From: Coriobacteriaceae bacterium
Lineage (GTDB): Bacteria; Actinomycetota; Coriobacteriia; Coriobacteriales; Atopobiaceae
Length of the DNA: 34,448 nucleotides
Reading direction: 5' to 3'
Assembly: GCA_003862195.1 (NCBI GenBank)
Contig: QOUO01000020.1
Coordinates: 1-34,448 of the forward strand
The notes below the pieces were generated by a model. The model saw nothing but the letters and a program-made list of their open reading frames with translations. It did no database searches and was not told where the DNA came from. Position numbers and translations under genes: made by a program. Positions 23,046 to 34,448 of the stretch are shown here, in pieces; position 1 is the stretch's first letter; each line of letters starts with the position of its first letter.

Positions 23046-24296
23046 CTACTCACCCTCCTCGTAGCGGCGCAGGGCCACCACGGCGTTGTGTCCGCCAAAG
23101 CCGAGCGACGTCGAGATCGCCCACTTGCCGTCGAACTTCGCGGCCTTGCCGGGCGTGTAGTCGAGGTCGCAGTCCGGGTCGGGCGTCGTGAGGCCGATGG
23201 TGGGCGGGATGACGGAGTCGCGCAGCGCGCAGGCGCAGGCCATGGCCTCGACCGCACCCGTCGCGCCAAGCATGTGGCCGGTCATGGACTTGGTGGAGGA
23301 TATCTGCGCGGCACGCGCGCCCTTCTCGCCCAGGGCCTGCTTGAGGCCGAGGGTCTCCGTCTTGTCGTTGAGCTTGGTCGAGGTGCCGTGCGCGTTCACG
23401 TACAGGCCCTCCTCCACGTCGACGCCGGCCTCGTCCACGGCCTGCCTGATGGCGCGGGTGATGCCGTCGGCGGAGGGGTCGGGGCTCGTGATGTGGTAGG
23501 CGTCGGCCGTGTTGCCGTAGCCGCAGACCTCGGCCACGATGTTGGCGCCGCGGGCCTTGGCGTGCTCGAGCTCCTCGAGCACCAGGATGCAGGCGCCCTC
23601 GCCCATCACGAAGCCGTTGCGGTTTGCGTCGAACGGGCGGCACGCCGTGGCGGGGTCGGGGTTGGTCGTCAGCGCGCGGCAGTTGGTGAAGCCGGCCACG
23701 GAGACGGGCACGATGGCCGCCTCGGTTCCGCCGGCCAGGATCGCGTCGGCGTAGCCGTAGCGGATGGCGCGGAACGCCTCGCCGATGGCGTTGGTGCTGG
23801 TGGCGCAGGCCGTCACCACGGGAAGGGTCGGGCCCTTGGCGTTGTGGCGGATGGAGACCTGGCCCGTTGCCATGTTAGCGATGAGCATGGGCACCAGGTA
23901 CGGGCTCACCTTGCGGGCGCCGCCGTCCATCAGGCGCTTGACCTGCGCCTCGGTGGTGCCGATGCCGCCCACGCCCGAGCCCACGTACACGCCCAGGCGC
24001 TCCGGGTCGATGGCGCCCTCCGCGTCGAGGCCGGCCGAGGCCATGGCCTCGTCGGACGCCACGAGCGCGAACTGCACGTTGCGGTCGTTGTGCAGCGCGA
24101 CGGACTTGCCGAGGGCCGCGGCCGCGTCAAAGCCCTTGACCTCGGCGGCCACGCTCACGCGAAAGCCCGTGGTGTCGAACGCCGTGATGGGCCCGATGCC
24201 GGACTCGCCCTTGACGAGCGCGTCCCAGCTCTGGGGGGCGGTGTTGCCCACGGGGGTGATGGCCCCCATGCCCGTGATGACTACCCTGCGATCCAT
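23046..24296 (-). CDS. fabF: 3-oxoacyl-ACP synthase II
   Basis: A 416-residue condensing enzyme of the KAS II type that elongates acyl-ACP with malonyl-ACP. The active-site Cys164 lies in VTACATSTNA. The two histidines lie in the HGTST and TGHMLGATGAVEA segments, giving the Cys-His-His triad. VVITGMGAITPVGN is the family N terminus. Length matches FabF (about 410-415). It is separated from fabG by a 34-base gap holding a small hairpin (24311-24328) and its own GAGGGG ribosome site. It is the only KAS I/II enzyme in the window. Confidence 0.95.
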   Translation of the reverse strand: MDRRVVITGMGAITPVGNTAPQSWDALVKGESGIGPITAFDTTGFRVSVAAEVKGFDAAAALGKSVALHNDRNVQFALVASDEAMASAGLDAEGAIDPERLGVYVGSGVGGIGTTEAQVKRLMDGGARKVSPYLVPMLIANMATGQVSIRHNAKGPTLPVVTACATSTNAIGEAFRAIRYGYADAILAGGTEAAIVPVSVAGFTNCRALTTNPDPATACRPFDANRNGFVMGEGACILVLEELEHAKARGANIVAEVCGYGNTADAYHITSPDPSADGITRAIRQAVDEAGVDVEEGLYVNAHGTSTKLNDKTETLGLKQALGEKGARAAQISSTKSMTGHMLGATGAVEAMACACALRDSVIPPTIGLTTPDPDCDLDYTPGKAAKFDGKWAISTSLGFGGHNAVVALRRYEEGE

Positions 24297-24310
24297 GTGT
24301 TATCCCCTCT

Positions 24311-24328
24311 GGGGCGCACGAGCGCCCC
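24311..24328 (-). other. Intercistronic hairpin between fabG and fabF
   Basis: GGGGCGC (24311-24317) pairs perfectly with GCGCCCC (24322-24328) across four bases, directly after the fabG stop. No T tract follows, so it is more likely a message-processing or stability element than a terminator. Confidence 0.4.
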
Positions 24329-24330
24329 GT

Positions 24331-25101
24331 CTACATGCAAAGTCCGCCGTCGACCCTGATGACCTCGCCGGTCACGTAACGCGCGGCGTCGGAGGCGAGA
24401 AACGCGACGACCTCGGCCACCTCGTCTGCCGTGCCCAGGCGGCCCAGCGGGATGCGCGCGGCGTAGCCGTCGCGGGCATCCTGCGTGAGCTTGTCGGTCA
24501 TGTCCGTCGCGATGAAGCCCGGCGCGACCGCGTTGGCGGTGACGCCGCGACCGGCGAGCTCCTGGGCCACGGACTTGGTGAGGCCCACGACGCCTGCCTT
24601 GGAGGCGGCGTAGTTGACCTGACCGGCGTTGCCGTGCAGGCCCACCACGGAGCTCACGTTGACGATGCGGCCGCCGCGCTGGCGCACGAAGTTCCTGGCC
24701 AGGGCGCGCGTCATGTTGAACGTGCCCCTCAGGTTGACCTCGATCACGCGGTCGAAGTCCTCGTCGCGCATGCGCGCGAACAGGCCGTCGCGCGTGATGC
24801 CCGCGTCGTTCACGAGCGCCCACACGGGGCCAAAGTCGTCCGTGACCTGCTTGACAGTGGCCTTGACGGCCGCGGAGTCGGACACGTCGCAGCGGTAGGC
24901 CTTGGCGCGGGCGCCGAGATCCTCGAGGGCGGCCACGCGCTCGGCCGCCGCGGCCTCGTTGCCGGCGTAGACGATGGCCACGTCGTAGCCGTCGCGTGCC
25001 AGGCGCTCCGCGCAGGCGCGGCCGATGCCGCGCGAGCCTCCCGTGACGAGCGCGACCCTGCGCGCCGCGTCCTCCTGGCCCGTCGTGTTGTTGCTGTCCA
25101 T
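24331..25101 (-). CDS. fabG: 3-oxoacyl-ACP reductase FabG
   Basis: A 256-residue short-chain dehydrogenase that reduces 3-oxoacyl-ACP with NADPH. TGGSRGIG (about residues 20-27) is the cofactor loop, VNDAGIT the NNAG-type strand, and VSSVVG...YAASK the Ser-Tyr-Lys catalytic set. PGFIATDMT is the usual SDR segment after the active site. About ten extra polar residues precede the Rossmann fold. It starts three bases after the fabD stop. The context makes the FabG assignment firm among many similar SDRs. Confidence 0.94.
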   Translation of the reverse strand: MDSNNTTGQEDAARRVALVTGGSRGIGRACAERLARDGYDVAIVYAGNEAAAAERVAALEDLGARAKAYRCDVSDSAAVKATVKQVTDDFGPVWALVNDAGITRDGLFARMRDEDFDRVIEVNLRGTFNMTRALARNFVRQRGGRIVNVSSVVGLHGNAGQVNYAASKAGVVGLTKSVAQELAGRGVTANAVAPGFIATDMTDKLTQDARDGYAARIPLGRLGTADEVAEVVAFLASDAARYVTGEVIRVDGGLCM

Positions 25102-25104
25102 GGG

Positions 25105-26082
25105 CTATGCCTCCAAGATCTGGCTCACGGCCGCGTCGAGCTGGTCGGGGGTCTCAACGCAGATTGCGGTGACGCCCTCGAGCGTGTGCCTGACGAGCCC
25201 CGTGAGCGTGTGGCCAGGACCGACCTCCACGAAGGTGTCGATGCCGGCTGCCTGCATGCCGCGCAGCTCGTCCACCCAGCGCACCGGGTGCGAGACCTGG
25301 TTCGCGAGCGTCTGCGCCATCGCGGCGGCGTCGCCCTCGTACGGCCCGCCCGTGAGGTTTGACCAGCACGGGACCGCGGGCTGCGCGAGCGGGTGCTCGC
25401 CCAGCCACGTGGCGAGCCCGTCCGCGGCGTCCGCCATGTACGGGCTGTGGAACGCGCCGGAGACGGCCACCTTGACGGAGCGGCCGCGCGCGGCCTTGAC
25501 CAGGCCGTCCAGCGCCTCGCAGGCCTCGGGCGAGCCCGCGGCCACGGTCTGGAGCGGGCTGTTGTAGTTGACGGGCCACGCCTCGCCGGCCTGCGCCGCG
25601 AGCTCCTCCACCTTGGAGGGCTCGAGCTTGAGCACGGCGCGCATGGCGCCGGGGTGCGCCTCGCAGCACGCGGTCATGAGCGTCGCGCGCTCGACCGCGA
25701 GCCGGAACGCGCCCTTGGGCGTGAGGGCGCCGGCAAAGGCCAGCGCGCCGAGCTCACCCAGCGAGTGGCCCGCGACGGCCGCGGGCACCACGCCGCGCTC
25801 GCGCAGCGCCTCGGCCGCGGCGAGGTCGACGGCCAGCACGCACGGCTGCGTGTTGACGGTGAGCGACAGCTCCTCCTTGGTGCCCGTGAAGCACTGGTCA
25901 CTCGTGCCGGGGCGGACGGAGTCCGCCGCGGAGAAGACCGCCCTCGCGGCCGCGGACGCCTCGCAGAGCTCGCGGCCCATGCCAGGCTTCTGCGAGCCCT
26001 GGCCCGCGAAGAGGAACGCGACGTTGGGAAGCGCGCGTGCGGAGGTGTTCTTCTCGCCCGCCACAGTCGCTACCTCACCCAT
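25105..26082 (-). CDS. fabD: Malonyl-CoA:ACP transacylase
   Basis: A 325-residue acyltransferase that loads malonyl groups on AcpP. FLFAGQGSQKPGMG is the family N-terminal loop, GHSLGELGAL holds the catalytic serine, and the GAFHSPYM segment holds the histidine. About 20 residues precede the usual FabD start, including AGEKNTSARAL, encoded by a copy of the dispersed 13-mer (26047-26059). The ATG at 26082 overlaps the end of fabK by 13 bases, which would favour coupled translation. A later start within the extension cannot be excluded. Confidence 0.93.
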   Translation of the reverse strand: MGEVATVAGEKNTSARALPNVAFLFAGQGSQKPGMGRELCEASAAARAVFSAADSVRPGTSDQCFTGTKEELSLTVNTQPCVLAVDLAAAEALRERGVVPAAVAGHSLGELGALAFAGALTPKGAFRLAVERATLMTACCEAHPGAMRAVLKLEPSKVEELAAQAGEAWPVNYNSPLQTVAAGSPEACEALDGLVKAARGRSVKVAVSGAFHSPYMADAADGLATWLGEHPLAQPAVPCWSNLTGGPYEGDAAAMAQTLANQVSHPVRWVDELRGMQAAGIDTFVEVGPGHTLTGLVRHTLEGVTAICVETPDQLDAAVSQILEA

Positions 26083-27014
26083 TTGGTGGCCTCCTTGAGG
26101 CAGGCCTCTGCGCCGCCCATCAGGTCGTCCACGATCTGGGCGGCCGTCTGCTCCTCGTGCACCATGGCGGCAACCTCGCCGGCCATGAAGGATCCCTCCT
26201 GGTAGTTGCCGTCCTTTGCGGCCTTGCGGAGCGACCCCGCGCCGAACTTGCCCAGCTCCTCGGGCGTGGCGCCCTCGCGCTCCATGCGCGCGAACTCCTG
26301 CGAGAAGGGCGTCTTGAGGCACCTGACGGCGCCGTTCATGCTGCGGCCCGTGACGATGGTGGAGAGGTCCTTGGCCTTGAGGATGCGGTCCTTGTACTCC
26401 TGGCTCACCGTGCACTCGCGCGCAACGAGGAAGCGCGTGCCGACCTGGATGCCGACGGCGCCCAGCATGAAGGCCGCGGCGGCCTGCCTGCCGTCCGCGA
26501 TGCCGCCCGCCGCGAGCACCGGCACCTTGACGGCGTCGACCACCTGCGGCACGAGAACCATGGTGGACAGCTCGCCGATGTGGCCGCCAGACTCGCCGCC
26601 CTCGGCCACGAAGGCATCGGCGCCGGCGCGCTCGAGCAGACGCGCGAGCGCGACCGACGAGACCACGGGGATGACCTTGACGCCGGCGGCCTTCCAATCG
26701 CGCATGTACTTGCTGGGGTTGCCCGCACCCGTGACCACGACGGGCACGTGCTCCTCGGCGACGACCTTGGCGACGTCCGCCGCGAAGGGGCTCTGAAGCA
26801 TCACGTTGACGCCGAACGGCTTCTGCGTGCGCGTGCGGACGTCCTGAATCTGCTCGCGAACCCAGTCAGGTCCGGCGTTCATGGCGGAGATGATGCCGAG
26901 GCCGCCAGCCTCGGAGACGGCTGCGGCGAGGCTCGCGTCGGCAATCCACGCCATGCCGCCCTGGAAGATGGGCTTCTCGATGCCCACGAGGTCACAGAGT
27001 GGGGTCTTGATCAT
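26070..27014 (-). CDS. fabK: Enoyl-ACP reductase II (FMN-dependent)
   Basis: A 314-residue FMN TIM-barrel enzyme of the nitronate monooxygenase/FabK superfamily, taken as the last reductive step of each elongation cycle. PIFQGGMAWI near the N terminus, VVVTGAGNPSKY, EGGESGGHIG with the conserved histidine, and AAGGIADGRQ with VGTRFL are all typical of FabK. It is the only enoyl reductase in the cluster and no FabI-like gene is seen here. FabK-type reductases are characteristically insensitive to triclosan. The gene occupies the FabK position of streptococcal clusters, which separates it from plain nitronate monooxygenases. Confidence 0.92.
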   Translation of the reverse strand: MIKTPLCDLVGIEKPIFQGGMAWIADASLAAAVSEAGGLGIISAMNAGPDWVREQIQDVRTRTQKPFGVNVMLQSPFAADVAKVVAEEHVPVVVTGAGNPSKYMRDWKAAGVKVIPVVSSVALARLLERAGADAFVAEGGESGGHIGELSTMVLVPQVVDAVKVPVLAAGGIADGRQAAAAFMLGAVGIQVGTRFLVARECTVSQEYKDRILKAKDLSTIVTGRSMNGAVRCLKTPFSQEFARMEREGATPEELGKFGAGSLRKAAKDGNYQEGSFMAGEVAAMVHEEQTAAQIVDDLMGGAEACLKEATKWVR

Positions 27015-27058
27015 GTGCGCTGAATCCTTAGTCTTGGCGTTTGCTTTGGGCCCTTGGC

Positions 27059-27292
27059 CTACTTGTTGAGAAGGCCGTCGACGATGTCGACGAACTCGCC
27101 CACGGTCTGCGGGTTGGCCTCGGGGTCGATCTCGATGCCGAACTCGTCCTCGCAGGCCATGACCGCCTCGACGGTGGCCATGGAGTCGAGGCCGACGCTC
27201 GCGAGGTTGGTGTCGCGGGTGAGCTCGACGTCGTCCAGGCCCTCCTGGTCCTTGAGGATGGCGACGACGCGATCGAAGGTGGACTCTGCCAT
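27059..27292 (-). CDS. acpP: Acyl carrier protein
   Basis: A 77-residue acidic helical carrier. GLDSMATVEAVM (Ser37) is the phosphopantetheine site; most AcpPs have DSL here, so DSM is a mild variant. It carries growing acyl chains for every Fab enzyme in the cluster. Length is standard. The preceding 106 bases to fabH contain a small hairpin (27312-27328) that could support a higher acpP message level. Confidence 0.93.
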   Translation of the reverse strand: MAESTFDRVVAILKDQEGLDDVELTRDTNLASVGLDSMATVEAVMACEDEFGIEIDPEANPQTVGEFVDIVDGLLNK

Positions 27293-27311
27293 GGTTCTCT
27301 CCTATCTACAG

Positions 27312-27328
27312 GCACCGGTTTCCGGTGC
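27312..27328 (-). other. Hairpin between fabH and acpP
   Basis: GCACCGG (27312-27318) pairs with CCGGTGC (27322-27328) around a TTT loop, 20 bases upstream of the acpP start. It may be a processing or stabilising site. No T tract marks it as a terminator. Confidence 0.35.
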
Positions 27329-27398
27329 GTACGAGGGCACCCTTGTGGCGCCCGGGTTACCTATGTGATGGCGCGGTGTCGCGCCGTGGAAGATGCGA

Positions 27399-28388
27399 CT
27401 AGCTTGGGGTTGCCTTTGGTTCCGCCTCCCAGCGGACGAGCGTGGAGGCGACGTCGAGCCCGGCGCCGAAGCCCACGAGGGCCACGAGCTCGCCTGGCTT
27501 GAGCTCGCCCTTGCGCGCCATGCCATCGAGTGCGAGCGGGATGCAGGCGCTCGAGACGTTGCCCGTGTGCGCGAGGTTCAGCACCACGCGGGACGGGTCC
27601 ACGCCCAGGCGCTCGACTACGGCGTCCACGATCCTCTCGTTTGCCTGATGGAGGACGAAGTGGTCGACCTGGTCAAGCGGCACGCCCGTCTGCTCCGACA
27701 TCTGGCGCAGCTCGCGGGTGACCTCCGTCACGGCGAAGCGGTAGACGCTGCGGCCGCGCATGGTCATGTAGCTGCCGGGCGCGGAATCGACGGACTGGTC
27801 GAAGGGGCTGTTGCCCGCGACGCCGGGGACGTCGATCGCCGCGACGTTGGGGATGGTGCGCAGTCGGCACCACAGCGGCGACTCGCCTCCCGCGCGCACG
27901 ACGACCGCCGCGGCGGCGTCGCCAAAGAGCACACAGGTGGTGCGGTCCTCCCAGTTCATGATGCGCGAGCACTTCTCGGCCGAAAGGACGAGGGCCGTCT
28001 TGGCCCTGCCGCGCGAGAGGTACCCGTCCGCGACGTCGAGCGCGAACACGAAGCCCGAGCACGCGGCGGACACGTCGAACGCAGGGCAGCTCGCGCCGAG
28101 TCGCTCCGCGACGGCGCAGGCCTCCGCCGGCATGAGGTGGTCGGCCGTGGTGGACGAGCACACGATGAGGTCGAGGTCCTCTGGCGCGATGCCGGCGGAC
28201 TCGAGCGCGCGCCTTGAGGCGGACTCCCCCAGCTCGTCCAGGGACTCCGTGGTGCAGACCCTGCGCTCCCTGATGCCGGTGCGCGAGCTGATCCACTCGT
28301 CGCTGGTGTCGAGGAACGTGGAGAGCTCGTCGTTGGTCACACTGCGCGCGGGAAGTGCCGAGCCCGTGCCGATGATGGTGTAGGACAC
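27399..28388 (-). CDS. fabH: 3-oxoacyl-ACP synthase III
   Basis: A 329-residue KAS III that starts fatty acid synthesis by condensing an acyl-CoA primer with malonyl-ACP. The catalytic triad is Cys110 in SAACSGF, His247 in LHQANERI and Asn277 in HTGNVSSA. TGIRERR near the N terminus is the usual CoA-contact segment. It begins with a GTG at 28388 that shares one base with the fabT stop, so translation is likely coupled. The primer preference (straight or branched) cannot be read. Confidence 0.95.
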   Translation of the reverse strand: MSYTIIGTGSALPARSVTNDELSTFLDTSDEWISSRTGIRERRVCTTESLDELGESASRRALESAGIAPEDLDLIVCSSTTADHLMPAEACAVAERLGASCPAFDVSAACSGFVFALDVADGYLSRGRAKTALVLSAEKCSRIMNWEDRTTCVLFGDAAAAVVVRAGGESPLWCRLRTIPNVAAIDVPGVAGNSPFDQSVDSAPGSYMTMRGRSVYRFAVTEVTRELRQMSEQTGVPLDQVDHFVLHQANERIVDAVVERLGVDPSRVVLNLAHTGNVSSACIPLALDGMARKGELKPGELVALVGFGAGLDVASTLVRWEAEPKATPS

Positions 28389-28975
28389 TAGCCCCTGCCT
28401 CCCTTCGAGACAGACATCTTCTTGAGGTATTCGCGCTGCGACTGCTGCGCCTTGGCATAGAAGTGCTCGAGACGCCTGATTCCGTCGAGAAGGACGCGGC
28501 GCTCGGAGACCGAGAGCCCGTCCGAGACCTCCTGTGCCATACGCTGGTTGAAGACCGCGTGGAGGCGAAAGACCTTCTCGCCCTTGCGCGTGAGCACCAC
28601 GTTGACGCGGCGCGCGTCCTCGGGATCGCGCTTCTTCTGGACGTAGCCCCTCTTGACGAGCCTGTTGACGGCCGCCGTCGCGGAGGGTACGCGGATGTCC
28701 AGCGTGCGCGCGAGCTCGGACATGCCGATGGTCGCGTCCTTGTGCAGCGTCTTGCGTCCCACCACCTCGATGAGGTTGAGTTCGGAGACGGTGAGGTCGA
28801 TCCCGTGGGAGCGCTGCGTGAGCGTCTCGAGGCGGTCGATGGAGTCGTAGGTGTTGCTGAGCAGTCGCGAGATCTCGGCTATGAAGTCGTACCCGTTGCT
28901 GACGTCGATTTGGTCCGCAGGGGCGTCAGAGGATACCACGAGCTCTTGTGCATGCCGCTCAAAGGACTTGGGCAC
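28388..28975 (-). CDS. fabT: MarR-family regulator of fatty acid synthesis, FabT-like
   Basis: A 195-residue MarR-type winged-helix repressor. The DNA-binding part runs from LTVSELNLIEVV through IGMSELARTLDIRVPSATAA to LVKRGYVQKKRDPEDARRV (about 60-135). In streptococci FabT, first gene of the same cluster, represses it in response to acyl-ACP. GTG 28975 was chosen because GGGGGAGG lies six bases upstream; an in-frame ATG at 29017 would add 14 residues but lacks a ribosome site. A 19-bp palindrome lies upstream at 29081-29099 and is a likely autoregulatory site. The FabT role is inferred from position and family. Confidence 0.85.
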   Translation of the reverse strand: MPKSFERHAQELVVSSDAPADQIDVSNGYDFIAEISRLLSNTYDSIDRLETLTQRSHGIDLTVSELNLIEVVGRKTLHKDATIGMSELARTLDIRVPSATAAVNRLVKRGYVQKKRDPEDARRVNVVLTRKGEKVFRLHAVFNQRMAQEVSDGLSVSERRVLLDGIRRLEHFYAKAQQSQREYLKKMSVSKGGRG

Positions 28976-29080
28976 GAGTGCCTCCCCCGTGTGACGACGT
29001 TGACCGGAACCTGCCATGACTGCGCGAACGGTGGGCTTGGAAGCCCGTGGGGCCCGGCGACTCGCCGGACCGATTTCCTT

Positions 29081-30153: not shown

Positions 30154-30852
30154 CTACGCCAGCTCGCGTACCATGCGCTCGACCACGGAGGCGCACAGCA
30201 GCGCGGAGCTGCGCTCGAACGCCGGGTAGTCCTCCGCGGCATCGCCGTTGGCCTTGTCGCTTATGGCGCGCACGACCACAAACGGCACGTGGTTGACGTA
30301 GCAGGTGTGCGCGATGTCGGCACCCTCCATCTCGCAGCAGAGCGCGCCAAAGTCGCGGACGATGCGGTCCTTCTCCTCCTGCGTGCGCACGAAGTGGTCG
30401 CCGGAGGCCACGCGGCCCACAAACACGTGGGCCTGGGGCGCGGCCTCGCGCACGGCCGCCGCCGCGGCGTCGCGCATGCGGGCGTCGGCGGGAAACGCCA
30501 CCACGCCCATGCCCGGCACCTCGCCGGGACGATAGCCCAGGTTCTGCACGTCCACGTCGTAGTGGGCCACGTCGTTGGACACCACCACGTCGGCAAGGTC
30601 CACGTCGTCGCTCAGTGAGCCGGCCACACCCGTGTTGATCACGCGGTCCGCGCCAAAGCGCAGCACGAGCGTCTGCGCGCAGATGGCGGCGTTGGTGCCG
30701 CCCACGCCGCAGCGCACGACCACCACGGGCACGCCGCCCAGCGCGCCCTCGCAGAACTCCATGCCGCTCACGACCGTCGTGTGCGGACGCTCGAGGTGGG
30801 CCTTGAGCAGCTCCACCTCGACGTCCATCGCGCCGATGATTCCCAGCGTCAC
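30154..30852 (-). CDS. mtnN: 5'-methylthioadenosine/S-adenosylhomocysteine nucleosidase
   Basis: A 232-residue nucleosidase that cleaves adenine from SAH (giving S-ribosylhomocysteine for LuxS) and from methylthioadenosine. IGAMDVEVE holds Glu12, CEMEGA holds Glu174/Glu176, and ISDKANGD holds the catalytic Asp199. NTGVAGSL is the ribose-site loop. The GTG start at 30852 is ten bases after the luxS stop. Homologues also cleave aminodeoxyfutalosine in menaquinone synthesis, but adjacency to luxS favours the SAH role. Confidence 0.93.
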   Translation of the reverse strand: MTLGIIGAMDVEVELLKAHLERPHTTVVSGMEFCEGALGGVPVVVVRCGVGGTNAAICAQTLVLRFGADRVINTGVAGSLSDDVDLADVVVSNDVAHYDVDVQNLGYRPGEVPGMGVVAFPADARMRDAAAAAVREAAPQAHVFVGRVASGDHFVRTQEEKDRIVRDFGALCCEMEGADIAHTCYVNHVPFVVVRAISDKANGDAAEDYPAFERSSALLCASVVERMVRELA

Positions 30853-30861
30853 GCGCGCCCC

Positions 30862-31353
30862 CTAGATGGTGCCTGGGTAGTTCATGTGGGCGTCGTCGAT
30901 CACGTTGAGGGTCTTGTCCAGGTAGCGGCGGGCCCACCACTTTGCCTGGTTGAGGTCGGAGTCGTGGTAGTTGCCGCACTCGGCCGGCTTGGCGCCGGGG
31001 ATCTCGCCCTCGAAGTCGCGCACGAACTCGAAGCCGCCCTTGACGAGGGGCAGGACCTCCTGCGGCGTGCACTCGCCAAAGATCAGCAGGTAGAAGCCCG
31101 TGCGGCAGCCCATGGGCCCAAAGTAGACCACGCGGCTGGCCCACTCGGGGTCGTTTCTGAAGTACGTGGCCAGCAGGTGCTCGATGGCGTGGGCCGCGGC
31201 GGTGTCCATGACCGGCTCGCGGTTGGGGGCCGTGAGGCGCAGGTCAAACGTGGTGATGACGGCGCCCGTCTTGGGGTCGCGGTCGACGCGGCTCACGTAC
31301 ACGCCCGGCTCGAGGCGAAGGTGGTCGATGGTAAAGCTTGCAATCTGCTCCAT
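30862..31353 (-). CDS. luxS: S-ribosylhomocysteine lyase LuxS
   Basis: A 163-residue iron/zinc enzyme that splits S-ribosylhomocysteine into homocysteine and the autoinducer-2 precursor DPD. HAIEHLL gives His55, Glu58 and His59. GPMGCRTGFYL carries the catalytic Cys83, and AECGNYHDSDL the metal ligand Cys126. Length fits the family (about 150-170). It begins the leftward luxS-mtnN-birA operon. The leader holds GGAGAAGGAC (31413-31404), a motif variant seen near other gene starts. It faces the SAHH-like gene divergently. Confidence 0.95.
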   Translation of the reverse strand: MEQIASFTIDHLRLEPGVYVSRVDRDPKTGAVITTFDLRLTAPNREPVMDTAAAHAIEHLLATYFRNDPEWASRVVYFGPMGCRTGFYLLIFGECTPQEVLPLVKGGFEFVRDFEGEIPGAKPAECGNYHDSDLNQAKWWARRYLDKTLNVIDDAHMNYPGTI

Positions 31354-31530: not shown

Positions 31531-31591
31531 CCGGCGGGCCCGTGCGCCGCCTGCCACGCGACGGCAGCCAACTGCAACCAAGGGAGGGGCC

Positions 31592-33103
31592 ACGAACACC
31601 CAAGACACCTTTGCCAACTGGGCGTGCGCGTGGGCGCAGGCCACCAACTCGTCGCTGGCGGGAACCTCCGTCCACGTGGGCGAGAAGGACCTCCATGCGG
31701 ACGGGGGCGCGCTTGCCCTCCGCATGGCGGAGTGGGGCCTCGTCCCCACGGCCGACCCCGCGGCGCCCCTGCGCTACCCGGAGCTGCCCGCCCGCGAGGA
31801 GCCCTCTGCCGCGGAGGCCTGGTCCCGCGCCCGCGAGGGCATGCCCGTGTCCGCCGCGCTCGCGCGCGAGCTCGCGGCGGACGGCCTGCTGCGCGGCGTG
31901 CGCATCGCCATGAGCCTCATCGTGGAGCCCAAGACGGCCGTGCTGGTGGAGCGCCTGGCGCAGGCCGGCGCCACCGTGGGCGTCTACTGCCACGCGCACG
32001 AGTGCCACCAGTACATTGCGGACGAGCTCGCCTCCCGCGGCTACGCCATCGAGGCGAACTCCGCCTGGACCCCCGCGCAGGAGCGCGAGGGGGCCCTGCG
32101 CCTGATGGACCGCATCCGCCCCAACGTCGTGATAGACGACGGCGCCAACTTTGCGCGCCTCCTCGTGATGGAGCGCCCCGCACTTCTCCCCCAGCTGATC
32201 GGCGTGGCGGAGGAGACCACGTCCGGTGTGCGCGCCTTCCAGGCGATGCAGGCTGCGCGCGAGCTGCCCTTCCCCGTGGTGGCCGTCAACGACTCGCAGC
32301 TCAAGACCCGCTTTGACAACCGCCACGGCACGGGCGAGACCTGCGTGGCCACCACGCTCGAGCTCCTGGGCGCGGGCTGCCTTGCCGGCGCGCGCGTCGC
32401 CGTGATGGGCTACGGCCCCGTGGGCGAGGGCTTTGCGCGCCGCGCCCGCGTGTTGGGCGCCCGCGTCACCGTGGTGGAGCTCGACCCCGTCCGCGCGCTC
32501 GAGGCGCGCTTTGCGGGCTTCGACGTGGCCCGCGCCGCGGAGGCCCTCCCCGCGGCGGACATGGTCGTCTCCGCAACGGGCGTCCGCCACACGCTGCCGC
32601 TCGACCTGCTGCGCACCCTGCCCAACGGCTGCCGCGTGGTGGTGATCGGCGGCATCGCCAACGAGGTCGCGCTGGACCAGGTGGTCGCCGCGGGCGGCGC
32701 CATCCTTCCGGGCGAGAAGGACGGCATCTCCCAGCTGCGCGTTCCCCAGGGACCAACGCTCGCCCTGCTTGCCGCCGGCGACGGCGTGAACTACGCCGCG
32801 GGCCCCGGCAACCCCATTGAGATAATGGACCTTAGCTTTGCCGTGCAAATCCTGGCCGTGGAGCACCTGCTGCGCAACCGCGGCGCGCTGCCCAACCGGG
32901 TGCTGCGGCTGGGGCCCGATGCGGACCGCCGCATCGCCACGCTCGCGCTCGCGGTCCGCGGCGTCACACTGGACGCCGCGCCCGAAGCCGACACGGCGGA
33001 CGGCTCCACCTTCGTTCCCGACTGGCGCGTCACGCGCTTCTCGGACGCCGTCACCACGCCCGCCGCCGCACCCGCGTCACCCAACCCAAAGGAGCTCCCA
33101 TGA
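31592..33103 (+). CDS. Divergent S-adenosylhomocysteine hydrolase-like protein
   Basis: About 503 residues with the SAHH two-domain layout. Conserved: VEPKTAVLVE, DDGANFAR, EETTSGV, VNDSQLKTRFDN (Lys238 and the Asp-Asn pair), the NAD motif GYGPVGEG (273-280) and VELDP. Not conserved: the histidine of the usual LHxxxE(K)TA strand is replaced, GHFDxE is GGIANE (354-359), the second catalytic histidine is absent, and the C-terminal Lys/Tyr tail is missing. It is therefore an SAHH homologue with altered chemistry or substrate, perhaps S-inosylhomocysteine, rather than a standard SAHH. A good ribosome site (AAGGGAGGGG, 31579-31588) points to an ACG codon at 31592; the only other upstream start is TTG 31523, at the 5' end of the predicted transcript. 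It carries two copies of the 13-mer (31678-31690, 32710-32722) and overlaps the amidohydrolase by ATGA. Confidence 0.75.
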   Translation, partial: TNTQDTFANWACAWAQATNSSLAGTSVHVGEKDLHADGGALALRMAEWGLVPTADPAAPLRYPELPAREEPSAAEAWSRAREGMPVSAALARELAADGLLRGVRIAMSLIVEPKTAVLVERLAQAGATVGVYCHAHECHQYIADELASRGYAIEANSAWTPAQEREGALRLMDRIRPNVVIDDGANFARLLVMERPALLPQLIGVAEETTSGVRAFQAMQAARELPFPVVAVNDSQLKTRFDNRHGTGETCVATTLELLGAGCLAGARVAVMGYGPVGEGFARRARVLGARVTVVELDPVRALEARFAGFDVARAAEALPAADMVVSATGVRHTLPLDLLRTLPNGCRVVVIGGIANEVALDQVVAAGGAILPGEKDGISQLRVPQGPTLALLAAGDGVNYAAGPGNPIEIMDLSFAVQILAVEHLLRNRGALPNRVLRLGPDADRRIATLALAVRGVTLDAAPEADTADGSTFVPDWRVTRFSDAVTTPAAAPASPNPKELP

Positions 33104-34443
33104 GCCAGCAACCAAAGGCCACCCTGTACGCCGCGCCGCTCGTCATCCCCGTGACCGGGCCCGTCATCTGCGGCGGTGCCGTCGCCGTGCGCGACGGCCG
33201 CATCCTGCACGTGGGCACGCGCGACTGGGTGGAGCAGAAGCTGACCGAGGACGGCCTCGCCCCGCAGCAGGTGGACGTGCGCCCGTGGCGTGGGCTCGTC
33301 ACGCCCGGCCTAGTCAACGCGCACACGCACCTGCAGTACACGGGCATGGCCTCCGTCGGCTCGCGCGAGTACCCCAGCTTCCGCGCGTGGGAGCTCGCGT
33401 TCAACAAGATATATGACAGCCCGGAGCAGAAGCCCTGGCGCGCCTGGTCGCACGAGGGCGCGCGCCAGATGGTCGAGGCGGGCATCACGGCCGCCGCGGA
33501 CGTCGTGAGCGACGTGGAGGCCGCGGACGCCCTCCTGTCCCAGGGACTCCACGGCATCGCGTACTGGGAGGTGATGGACTGGGACAACGAGGACTGGAAG
33601 CAGCACGGCAAGGAGGCCCTTCTCGCCCACATCGCAGACATCCGCAGGATGGGCGTGACGGAGCTGGGCATCAGCCCGCACGCGCCGTACTCGCTGGGAT
33701 CCGGCCCGCTGCTCGACCTGCCGGACATCGCGCGCCAGCTGGGCATGCGCCTGCACATCCACCTGGGCGAGACCCCGGCCGAGGCCGGCCACCTGCCCTC
33801 GCGCCTCACCAACCAGACGTCCTGGGCGTGGAACCGCACGGAGTGGCAGAGCTTCAACGACCTCAAGCGCGCGGGTGCCGGCGCGAGCGCCATCCAGTTC
33901 CTGGACCAGCTCGCGGTCCTGGGTCCGGACGTCCACATCGCCCACGGCGTCCACGCCTCGCGCGAGGACCGCAGGATCCTGCGGCAGCGCGGCGTCTCCG
34001 TGGCGCTGTGCCCGCGCTCCAACCGCGTCACCTGCACCGGCGCGGACGCCCCCGTCGCGCGCTACCTGGAGGAGGGCAACCCCCTGTGCGTGGGCACGGA
34101 CTCGCTTTCCTCCTGCCCGAGCCTCGACGTCCTGGACGACGTGGCCATGCTGTACGACATCGCCATCGCGCAGGGCTACGAGGGCCCGGACCTCTCGCAC
34201 CGGCTCATCCGCATGATGACGCTGGGCGGCGCGGAGGCCATGGGCCTCAACTGCGGCCCCAAGCGCATCGGTCAGATCAACGTGGGCGCCCAGGCCGACC
34301 TCGCGTTCTTCGACGTGCCTGTCGACGTGTCGTCACCCCAGGCGCTCGAGGACACCATGGAGCGCTTCGTCCGCCACGGCTCCGGCACCTGCCGCGCCAC
34401 CATCATCGAGGGAAGGGTCGCCTATGACCGCATCTGGAACTGA
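33100..34443 (+). CDS. Amidohydrolase, SAH/MTA/aminodeoxyfutalosine deaminase type
   Basis: A 447-residue metal-dependent hydrolase of the TRZ/ATZ (MtaD/SsnA-like) group. Metal and catalytic motifs: NAHTHL (His75, His77), HIHLGET (third histidine and the catalytic Glu), AHGVHAS, CPRSN and GTDSLSS with the metal Asp. Relatives deaminate the adenine of S-adenosylhomocysteine, methylthioadenosine or 6-amino-6-deoxyfutalosine, or guanine. Its start overlaps the stop of the SAHH-like gene as ATGA, so the two are co-translated. That pairing favours SAH, converted to S-inosylhomocysteine, as substrate, but menaquinone synthesis is an alternative because MtnN homologues also act there. It ends five bases before the window edge. 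Confidence 0.82.
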   Translation: MSQQPKATLYAAPLVIPVTGPVICGGAVAVRDGRILHVGTRDWVEQKLTEDGLAPQQVDVRPWRGLVTPGLVNAHTHLQYTGMASVGSREYPSFRAWELAFNKIYDSPEQKPWRAWSHEGARQMVEAGITAAADVVSDVEAADALLSQGLHGIAYWEVMDWDNEDWKQHGKEALLAHIADIRRMGVTELGISPHAPYSLGSGPLLDLPDIARQLGMRLHIHLGETPAEAGHLPSRLTNQTSWAWNRTEWQSFNDLKRAGAGASAIQFLDQLAVLGPDVHIAHGVHASREDRRILRQRGVSVALCPRSNRVTCTGADAPVARYLEEGNPLCVGTDSLSSCPSLDVLDDVAMLYDIAIAQGYEGPDLSHRLIRMMTLGGAEAMGLNCGPKRIGQINVGAQADLAFFDVPVDVSSPQALEDTMERFVRHGSGTCRATIIEGRVAYDRIWN

Positions 34444-34448
34444 CCGCA

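Follow-up and report, generated by a model that had tools for sequence, protein, structure and literature searches.

The window analysed here, a stretch of 34,448 nucleotides from a Coriobacteriaceae bacterium placed in the Atopobiaceae (contig QOUO01000020.1), ends with two overlapping genes on the forward strand. The first codes for a protein resembling S-adenosylhomocysteine hydrolase (SAHH) with a nicotinamide adenine dinucleotide (NAD) site (conserved part at 31592-33103), and the second for a COG0402-type amidohydrolase, labelled here an adenine-type deaminase (33100-34443). The ATG of the deaminase gene overlaps the stop codon of the SAHH-like gene as ATGA at 33100, in agreement with the translational coupling suggested in an earlier note on this DNA. 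The first codons of a Cupin_5 (DUF985) gene (34424-34448, forward strand) begin inside the 3' end of the deaminase gene. The pair faces two genes on the opposite strand, luxS (30862-31353; PF02664 and NF002604 over cut-off) and mtnN/pfs (30154-30852; NF004079 and TIGR01704 over cut-off), the latter coding for a nucleosidase of 5'-methylthioadenosine (MTA) and S-adenosylhomocysteine (SAH), hereafter MTAN, which in the alignment has the normal adenine-type Asp (ISDKAN). We found that the SAHH-like protein belongs to a family that has lost three active-site histidines, and the pair is best read as the conserved centre of a gene cluster for import and salvage found in gut- and animal-associated bacteria.

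A histidine-less clade of SAHH-like proteins

The SAHH-like protein shares with AhcY/SahH the fold, the NAD site and a catalytic residue set (K186, D190, N191, D131 and E156 in SAHH numbering). The Pfam families AdoHcyase (PF05221) and AdoHcyase_NAD (PF00670) match it above cut-off, and it passes the cut-off of the NCBIfam model NF004009 'adenosylhomocysteinase' (512 bits against 485), whereas against TIGR00936 (ahcY) it scores 258 bits, about half of the 498-bit cut-off. An AlphaFold2 (AF2) model of good quality (predicted local distance difference test, pLDDT, 86.8; predicted template modelling score, pTM, 0.83) has the SAHH fold with its NAD-binding domain. By profile search as well as by this model, the nearest proteins are SAHHs or S-inosylhomocysteine hydrolases (SIHHs) of Pyrococcus furiosus, Thermotoga maritima and Methanococcus maripaludis, with Z around 45 and a root mean square deviation of 2.4-2.7 over about 400 residues.

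The earlier note had described a protein that lacks the histidine of the GHFDxE motif and keeps the NAD site and the Lys/Asp-Asn motif, and both observations proved correct. GHFDxE reads GGIANE in the window protein, HxExK reads IVEPK and GxGHP reads GPGNP, so that two further histidines are lost. The residue tables comprised 34 homologues and, after addition of Actinomycetaceae, 52; in all of them (34/34 and 52/52) the water-activating H55 is replaced by Ile or Val, the gate residue H301 by Gly and H353 by Asn, so that the losses are due neither to sequencing error nor to decay. The adenine-reading motif HxTxE/Q of SAHH is likewise absent from all 52 proteins, which instead keep the Glu and Lys of ExK (as IxExK or VxExK) together with the equivalents of D131, E156, T157, K186, D190 and N191. 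All 25 normal SAHHs of Coriobacteriia have the three histidines and the motif HxTxE, the catalytic and gate histidines are present in the T. maritima, P. furiosus and M. maripaludis proteins and in 20 of 20 clostridial SIHH-type proteins, and the same two residues, found in 45/45 SAHH/SIHH-type genome proteins, are missing from each of the 52 histidine-less ones. A conserved YCHAHEC motif of the window protein was considered as a substitute for the lost histidines and ruled out, being confined to Atopobiaceae.

In SAHH, the water for addition to the 4',5'-unsaturated 3'-keto intermediate is activated by His55 acting as a base. His301 has two roles, stabilising this intermediate and serving as the gate of the homocysteine channel. 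Asp131 deals with the proton at C4', Lys186 is in contact with the 3'-OH, and the only contact of His353 with the nucleobase is through its main chain (PMC4647836). Set against these roles, the residues retained and lost suggest that the redox part of the reaction and the handling of the C4' proton are intact, whereas the part that adds water is not. The Glu/Lys pair of HxExK is the fingerprint of S-inosylhomocysteine-preferring enzymes (PMC10978960).

The phylogeny proposed in the earlier note separates the histidine-less family from the catalytic SAHH/SIHH, the two lying on opposite sides of a branch with 100/100 support (SH-aLRT 100 in another tree); a histidine-less member from Roseateles falls on the side of its family, which is a clade apart. 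Two plasmid matches without the deaminase cluster were not retained as members: the one from Nonomuraea has the motifs of a normal histidine-containing SAHH, and that from Rubrobacter had its motifs read in part only. The missing C-terminal tail to which the note had drawn attention is indeed short, but it is not distinctive, as SAHH/SIHH of T. maritima and of archaea likewise have short tails (PMC10978960). A DWxxTR(F/Y) motif, for which no order is predicted, is conserved at the C-terminal end of the Atopobiaceae and Bifidobacteriaceae members and absent from the Actinomycetaceae members inspected. At the conserved start of the gene (window 31570-31600) there is no ATG, GTG or TTG, and the same was seen in some Atopobiaceae relatives. 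An ACG codon (ACG AAC/GAC ACC) is conserved at this place (also at L033:5990-6010, L034:5992-6005 and L035:5990-6005), preceded in two of these loci by a Shine-Dalgarno-like GGGAGG; judging from these sequences, non-AUG initiation is possible in the window and in some of its relatives.

An obligatory deaminase partner and a recurrent gene cluster

The deaminase matches PF01979, and the metal-binding and catalytic residues of COG0402 (HxH, HxxE, H, D) are present and invariant (H75, H77, H221, E224, H282 and D334 in 30 homologues). Its assignment to the SAH/MTA type in the earlier note holds at the superfamily level, at which all 30 homologues match, but not at that of an equivalog, since no curated equivalog cut-off is reached (47 against 779 bits for PRK15493, 99 against 522 bits for PRK07228). 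Structure was rejected as a guide to specificity because the model is of low confidence (pLDDT 67.6) and its best matches barely differ, the closest structures being those of MTA/SAH and aminofutalosine deaminases, which are tied, with guanine deaminases almost level (Z 30-32).

In the co-occurrence search suggested for the pair, the SAHH-like gene and the deaminase gene occupy the same 41 of 151 Bifidobacteriaceae genomes (hypergeometric probability about 1e-37, uncorrected for relatedness), and no other SAHH-family protein was found in these 151 genomes (E <= 1e-20). Where it can be counted, the pairing is obligatory. Moreover, the two are naturally fused in a metagenome-assembled genome (MAG) of Clostridiales Family XIII, as a protein of 1036 residues with an SAHH-like part (53-568) and a deaminase part (569-1027); this MAG also keeps an intact SIHH-type gene. 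On a Roseateles plasmid, a histidine-less gene stands next to an intact SIHH-type gene (HxExK) in one operon; the plasmid also encodes a LacI regulator, a carbohydrate-type ATP-binding cassette (ABC) importer, a nucleoside hydrolase resembling RihC and a homologous deaminase (39% identity). The presence of the intact and the histidine-less genes side by side suggests that the histidine-less protein probably does something else or something additional. SIHH-type SAHHs that have HxExK and keep every histidine are frequent in the sampled clostridial order, with matches in 89 of 297 genomes, and the 20 that were read (L106-L125) are mostly without a neighbouring deaminase gene.

Gene contexts from 45 genomes show a cluster made of the SAHH-like gene, the deaminase gene, a Cupin_5 gene (PF06172) and the substrate-binding protein (SBP, SBP_bac_3), permease and ATPase genes of an importer, which recurs in Atopobiaceae, Bifidobacteriaceae and Actinomycetaceae (family labels of the relatives were taken from the GTDB families of Alloscardovia and Scrofimicrobium). 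Cupin_5 is found near the pair in all 44 unfused loci (27/27 in Bifidobacteriaceae, 5/5 in Atopobiaceae and 12/12 in Actinomycetaceae), a tally of presence within the fetched stretch and not of operon order, as the gene lies upstream or some distance off in a few loci (L085, L099). Genes for an amino-acid-type ABC importer lie nearby in nearly all loci whose contig is long enough, with some exceptions. In the genome of the window, the last 127 bases of the window are the first 127 of contig C11, which carries Cupin_5 (PF06172 at C11:157-636) and then a nucleosidase, and the last 127 of C11 are the first 127 of contig C77, which carries SBP, permease and ATPase. Such exact overlaps are typical of de Bruijn contig ends, so the cluster is very probably complete across the three contigs.

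The SBPs of the importer keep the Arg that binds the amino-acid carboxylate in 33 of 33 cases and the amino-binding Asp in 23 of 33 (by reference to GlnBP, whose residues agree with the 1ggg chain where that alignment reaches), suggesting an amino-acid-bearing ligand such as SAH. The cluster nucleosidase shares with futalosine hydrolase and MTAN the PNP_UDP_1 fold and, in most members, the catalytic Glu and the EMEG motif, but it scores below all curated cut-offs, including those of these two enzymes. It also has Asn where MTAN has the Asp contacting purine N7, in 17 of 17 genomes (by alignment, including alignments with PDB structures), whereas the window's own MTAN beside luxS retains the Asp. 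An Asn at this place (Asn243) is used by trimeric purine nucleoside phosphorylases restricted to 6-oxopurines, where its role in specificity is well established. The ExK pair and the nucleosidase Asn agree in pointing to a nucleoside of hypoxanthine as the compound that follows the deaminase step. For Cupin_5, the solved structures are all unannotated, and the papers found name no reaction.

Some loci have peculiarities of their own. The SBP gene in the genome of the window (C77:21-1044, L157) is broken into two frames near base 350 (NPAYTP before the break, WVIDDKP after it), by either an assembly error or a frameshift, and in Scrofimicrobium canadense (L042:5626-8309) the SAHH-like and deaminase genes are each split over two frames, either from decay or from sequencing errors. 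In the genus of the window, Cupin_5 and the nucleosidase are separated by an inserted gene on the opposite strand (L033:9327-10613; C11:1347-2684, L142) that by eye looks like an ATPase (GTKWCGKTW); none was seen in other clusters. In most Bifidobacteriaceae (L077-L104) the cluster lies at one fixed site, by eye with a radA-like gene upstream of it and a truB/rbfA/infB-like region facing it, which suggests that it was inserted long ago and has been lost many times since.

Relation to LuxS and to the annotated adenosylhomocysteinases

The earlier note had suggested that the pair might be a second in-house branch of SAH disposal beside luxS-mtnN. This idea is not supported by the comparison of gene contexts, in which the luxS-mtnN neighbourhood was seen in the genus of the window only and was for that reason rejected as a functional clue. 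The neighbours of the pair in other groups are an ABC importer, Cupin_5 and often a nucleosidase, which points to a compound that is imported and then scavenged. Of the 41 Bifidobacteriaceae genomes with the SAHH-like gene, 39 also have LuxS, as do 84 without that gene; across groups, LuxS was found in 8 of the 9 pair-bearing genomes tested. The cluster comes on top of the Pfs/LuxS route and does not replace it.

These counts bear on an old oddity, as a 2004 survey found luxS together with sahH in Bifidobacterium longum and in just one other organism (PMC524169). Every SAHH-family match in the 151 Bifidobacteriaceae genomes scores as the histidine-less type, which offers an explanation: on this sequence evidence, the histidine-less protein is very likely what is meant by the 'sahH' of the survey and also in a later metabolic model of B. 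longum BB-46 (PMC8660834). Two ordinary SAH-disposal routes in bifidobacteria are then probably a mistaken idea, and the name 'adenosylhomocysteinase' is probably wrong for the SAHH-like protein. Since the histidines by which that reaction is defined are gone from the family, a wrong reaction is probably attributed to it by automatic annotation and in at least one metabolic model (that of BB-46).

Proposed role and alternatives

A pathway combining SIHH with the deaminase DadD was reportedly described in Methanocaldococcus jannaschii and Thermotoga maritima by Miller, Xu and White in 2015. This type of pathway was also treated by Koeppl in 2024 (PMC10978960). The pair shares with it the SAHH fold, the hypoxanthine-reading Glu/Lys, the deaminase partner and the short C-terminal tail, and differs by the lack of catalytic and gate histidines, the obligate deaminase neighbour, the separate clade, and the importer, Cupin_5 and 6-oxopurine-type nucleosidase of the cluster. 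The comparison with methanogen SIHH made in the earlier note is therefore apt for the invariant Glu/Lys and the pairing with a deaminase, but the idea of a simple counterpart is not supported, as intact SIHH-type enzymes are widespread in Clostridia and occur beside the histidine-less gene in Roseateles.

We propose that an adenosyl compound enters the cell through the ABC importer, SAH being the likeliest candidate although S-adenosylmethionine (SAM) or another 5'-substituted adenosine would also be possible, and that the amidohydrolase converts its adenine to hypoxanthine, giving an S-inosyl compound. The SAHH-like protein would hold this hypoxanthine nucleoside through its SIHH-type Glu/Lys pair, and the bound NAD with the retained Lys/Asp/Asn/Thr set would oxidise the 3'-OH. 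The retained Asp could then deprotonate C4', upon which the 5' thiol, homocysteine, would leave; without the water-activating and gate histidines, re-hydration at C5' may be absent or achieved differently. Cupin_5 and the 6-oxopurine-type nucleosidase would process the nucleoside remnant. The gene anatomy, the residue losses throughout the family, its separate clade and the cluster are shown by the sequences. The further points, SAH as the compound, deamination as the first step and elimination of homocysteine without the normal water addition, are together plausible, if somewhat short of probable. In its most specific form, which we hold to be rather unlikely, the protein would represent a new enzyme class, an NAD-dependent S-inosylhomocysteine lyase that oxidises C3', eliminates homocysteine and, for want of the water-activating histidine, releases an unsaturated or 3'-keto nucleoside for Cupin_5 and the 6-oxopurine nucleosidase, in the service of animal-associated bacteria that scavenge external SAH for sulfur and purine. 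Such a cluster would be a route by which gut bacteria take up and use SAH or a similar adenosyl compound, and it places DUF985/Cupin_5, a domain of no known function, in a metabolic setting.

Several observations weigh against this proposal. Nine of the 33 actinobacterial SBPs have Ser in place of the amino-binding Asp, and the importer of Roseateles is of the carbohydrate type, so that not every cluster has a substrate that bears an amino acid. In more than half of the clusters examined a nucleosidase is missing from the vicinity, neither the window nor 17 cluster loci contained a SAM/SAH riboswitch or any other Rfam element at gathering score, and the deaminase is equidistant from SAH/MTA, 5'-deoxyadenosine, 8-oxoguanine and aminofutalosine deaminases. 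Finally, the loss of the water-activating and gate histidines could equally mean another substrate or reaction.

The main alternative, a serious possibility although a somewhat unlikely one, takes up this last point: the compound taken up and degraded would be an adenine nucleoside other than SAH, whether MTA, 5'-deoxyadenosine, SAM or a modified one, and the SAHH-like enzyme would perform a different NAD-dependent step on the deaminated nucleoside, for example 3'-oxidation with base loss or epimerisation. It would accommodate the loss of all three histidines, which makes classic hydrolysis doubtful, the deaminase that is unassignable below the superfamily level, the setting of the Roseateles pair among carbohydrate-type importer, LacI regulator and nucleoside hydrolase beside an intact SIHH-type gene, and the near-constant presence of LuxS in the bearers, by which the cluster is not needed for SAH disposal. 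It fits less well with the importers of most actinobacterial clusters, which keep both amino-acid-binding residues, and with a fold and retained catalytic set that are those of SAHH/SIHH. An ordinary SIHH, making inosine and homocysteine with other residues (a new Tyr or Asn, for instance) activating the water, is unlikely: the closest structures, the ExK motif and the full set of cofactor and 3'-redox residues are as expected of such an enzyme, but the strict partition of base and gate histidines between the two families, the distinct clade and the intact SIHH-type genes kept alongside in Roseateles and the Clostridiales MAG are not. Loss of catalytic histidines and fusion with the deaminase might also suggest a catalytically dead protein that would bind NAD together with an inosyl ligand and regulate the deaminase or the importer, following the precedent of AHCYL1/AHCYL2 (IRBIT), SAHH paralogues with substituted catalytic residues described as inactive (PMC12955632). 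Those are eukaryotic signalling proteins, however, whereas here the gene lies in a metabolic cluster and the redox set is intact, its invariance in all 52 proteins being unexpected for a dead enzyme, and we regard this explanation as very improbable. A part in the menaquinone (futalosine) pathway, as an aminodeoxyfutalosine deaminase with an associated protein, is scarcely credible. In its favour, the deaminase aligns in one stretch to the aminofutalosine deaminase model, though far under its cut-off; against it, no MqnA/MqnD (PF02621) was matched in the genome of the window (assembly 99% complete) by a search that found T. maritima, Thermus and others as expected.

Elsewhere in the window, upstream of the luxS-mtnN side, a run of type II fatty acid synthesis genes (FabF, FabG, FabD, FabK, FabH and a MarR-type regulator, by eye) extends over positions 23046-29017.

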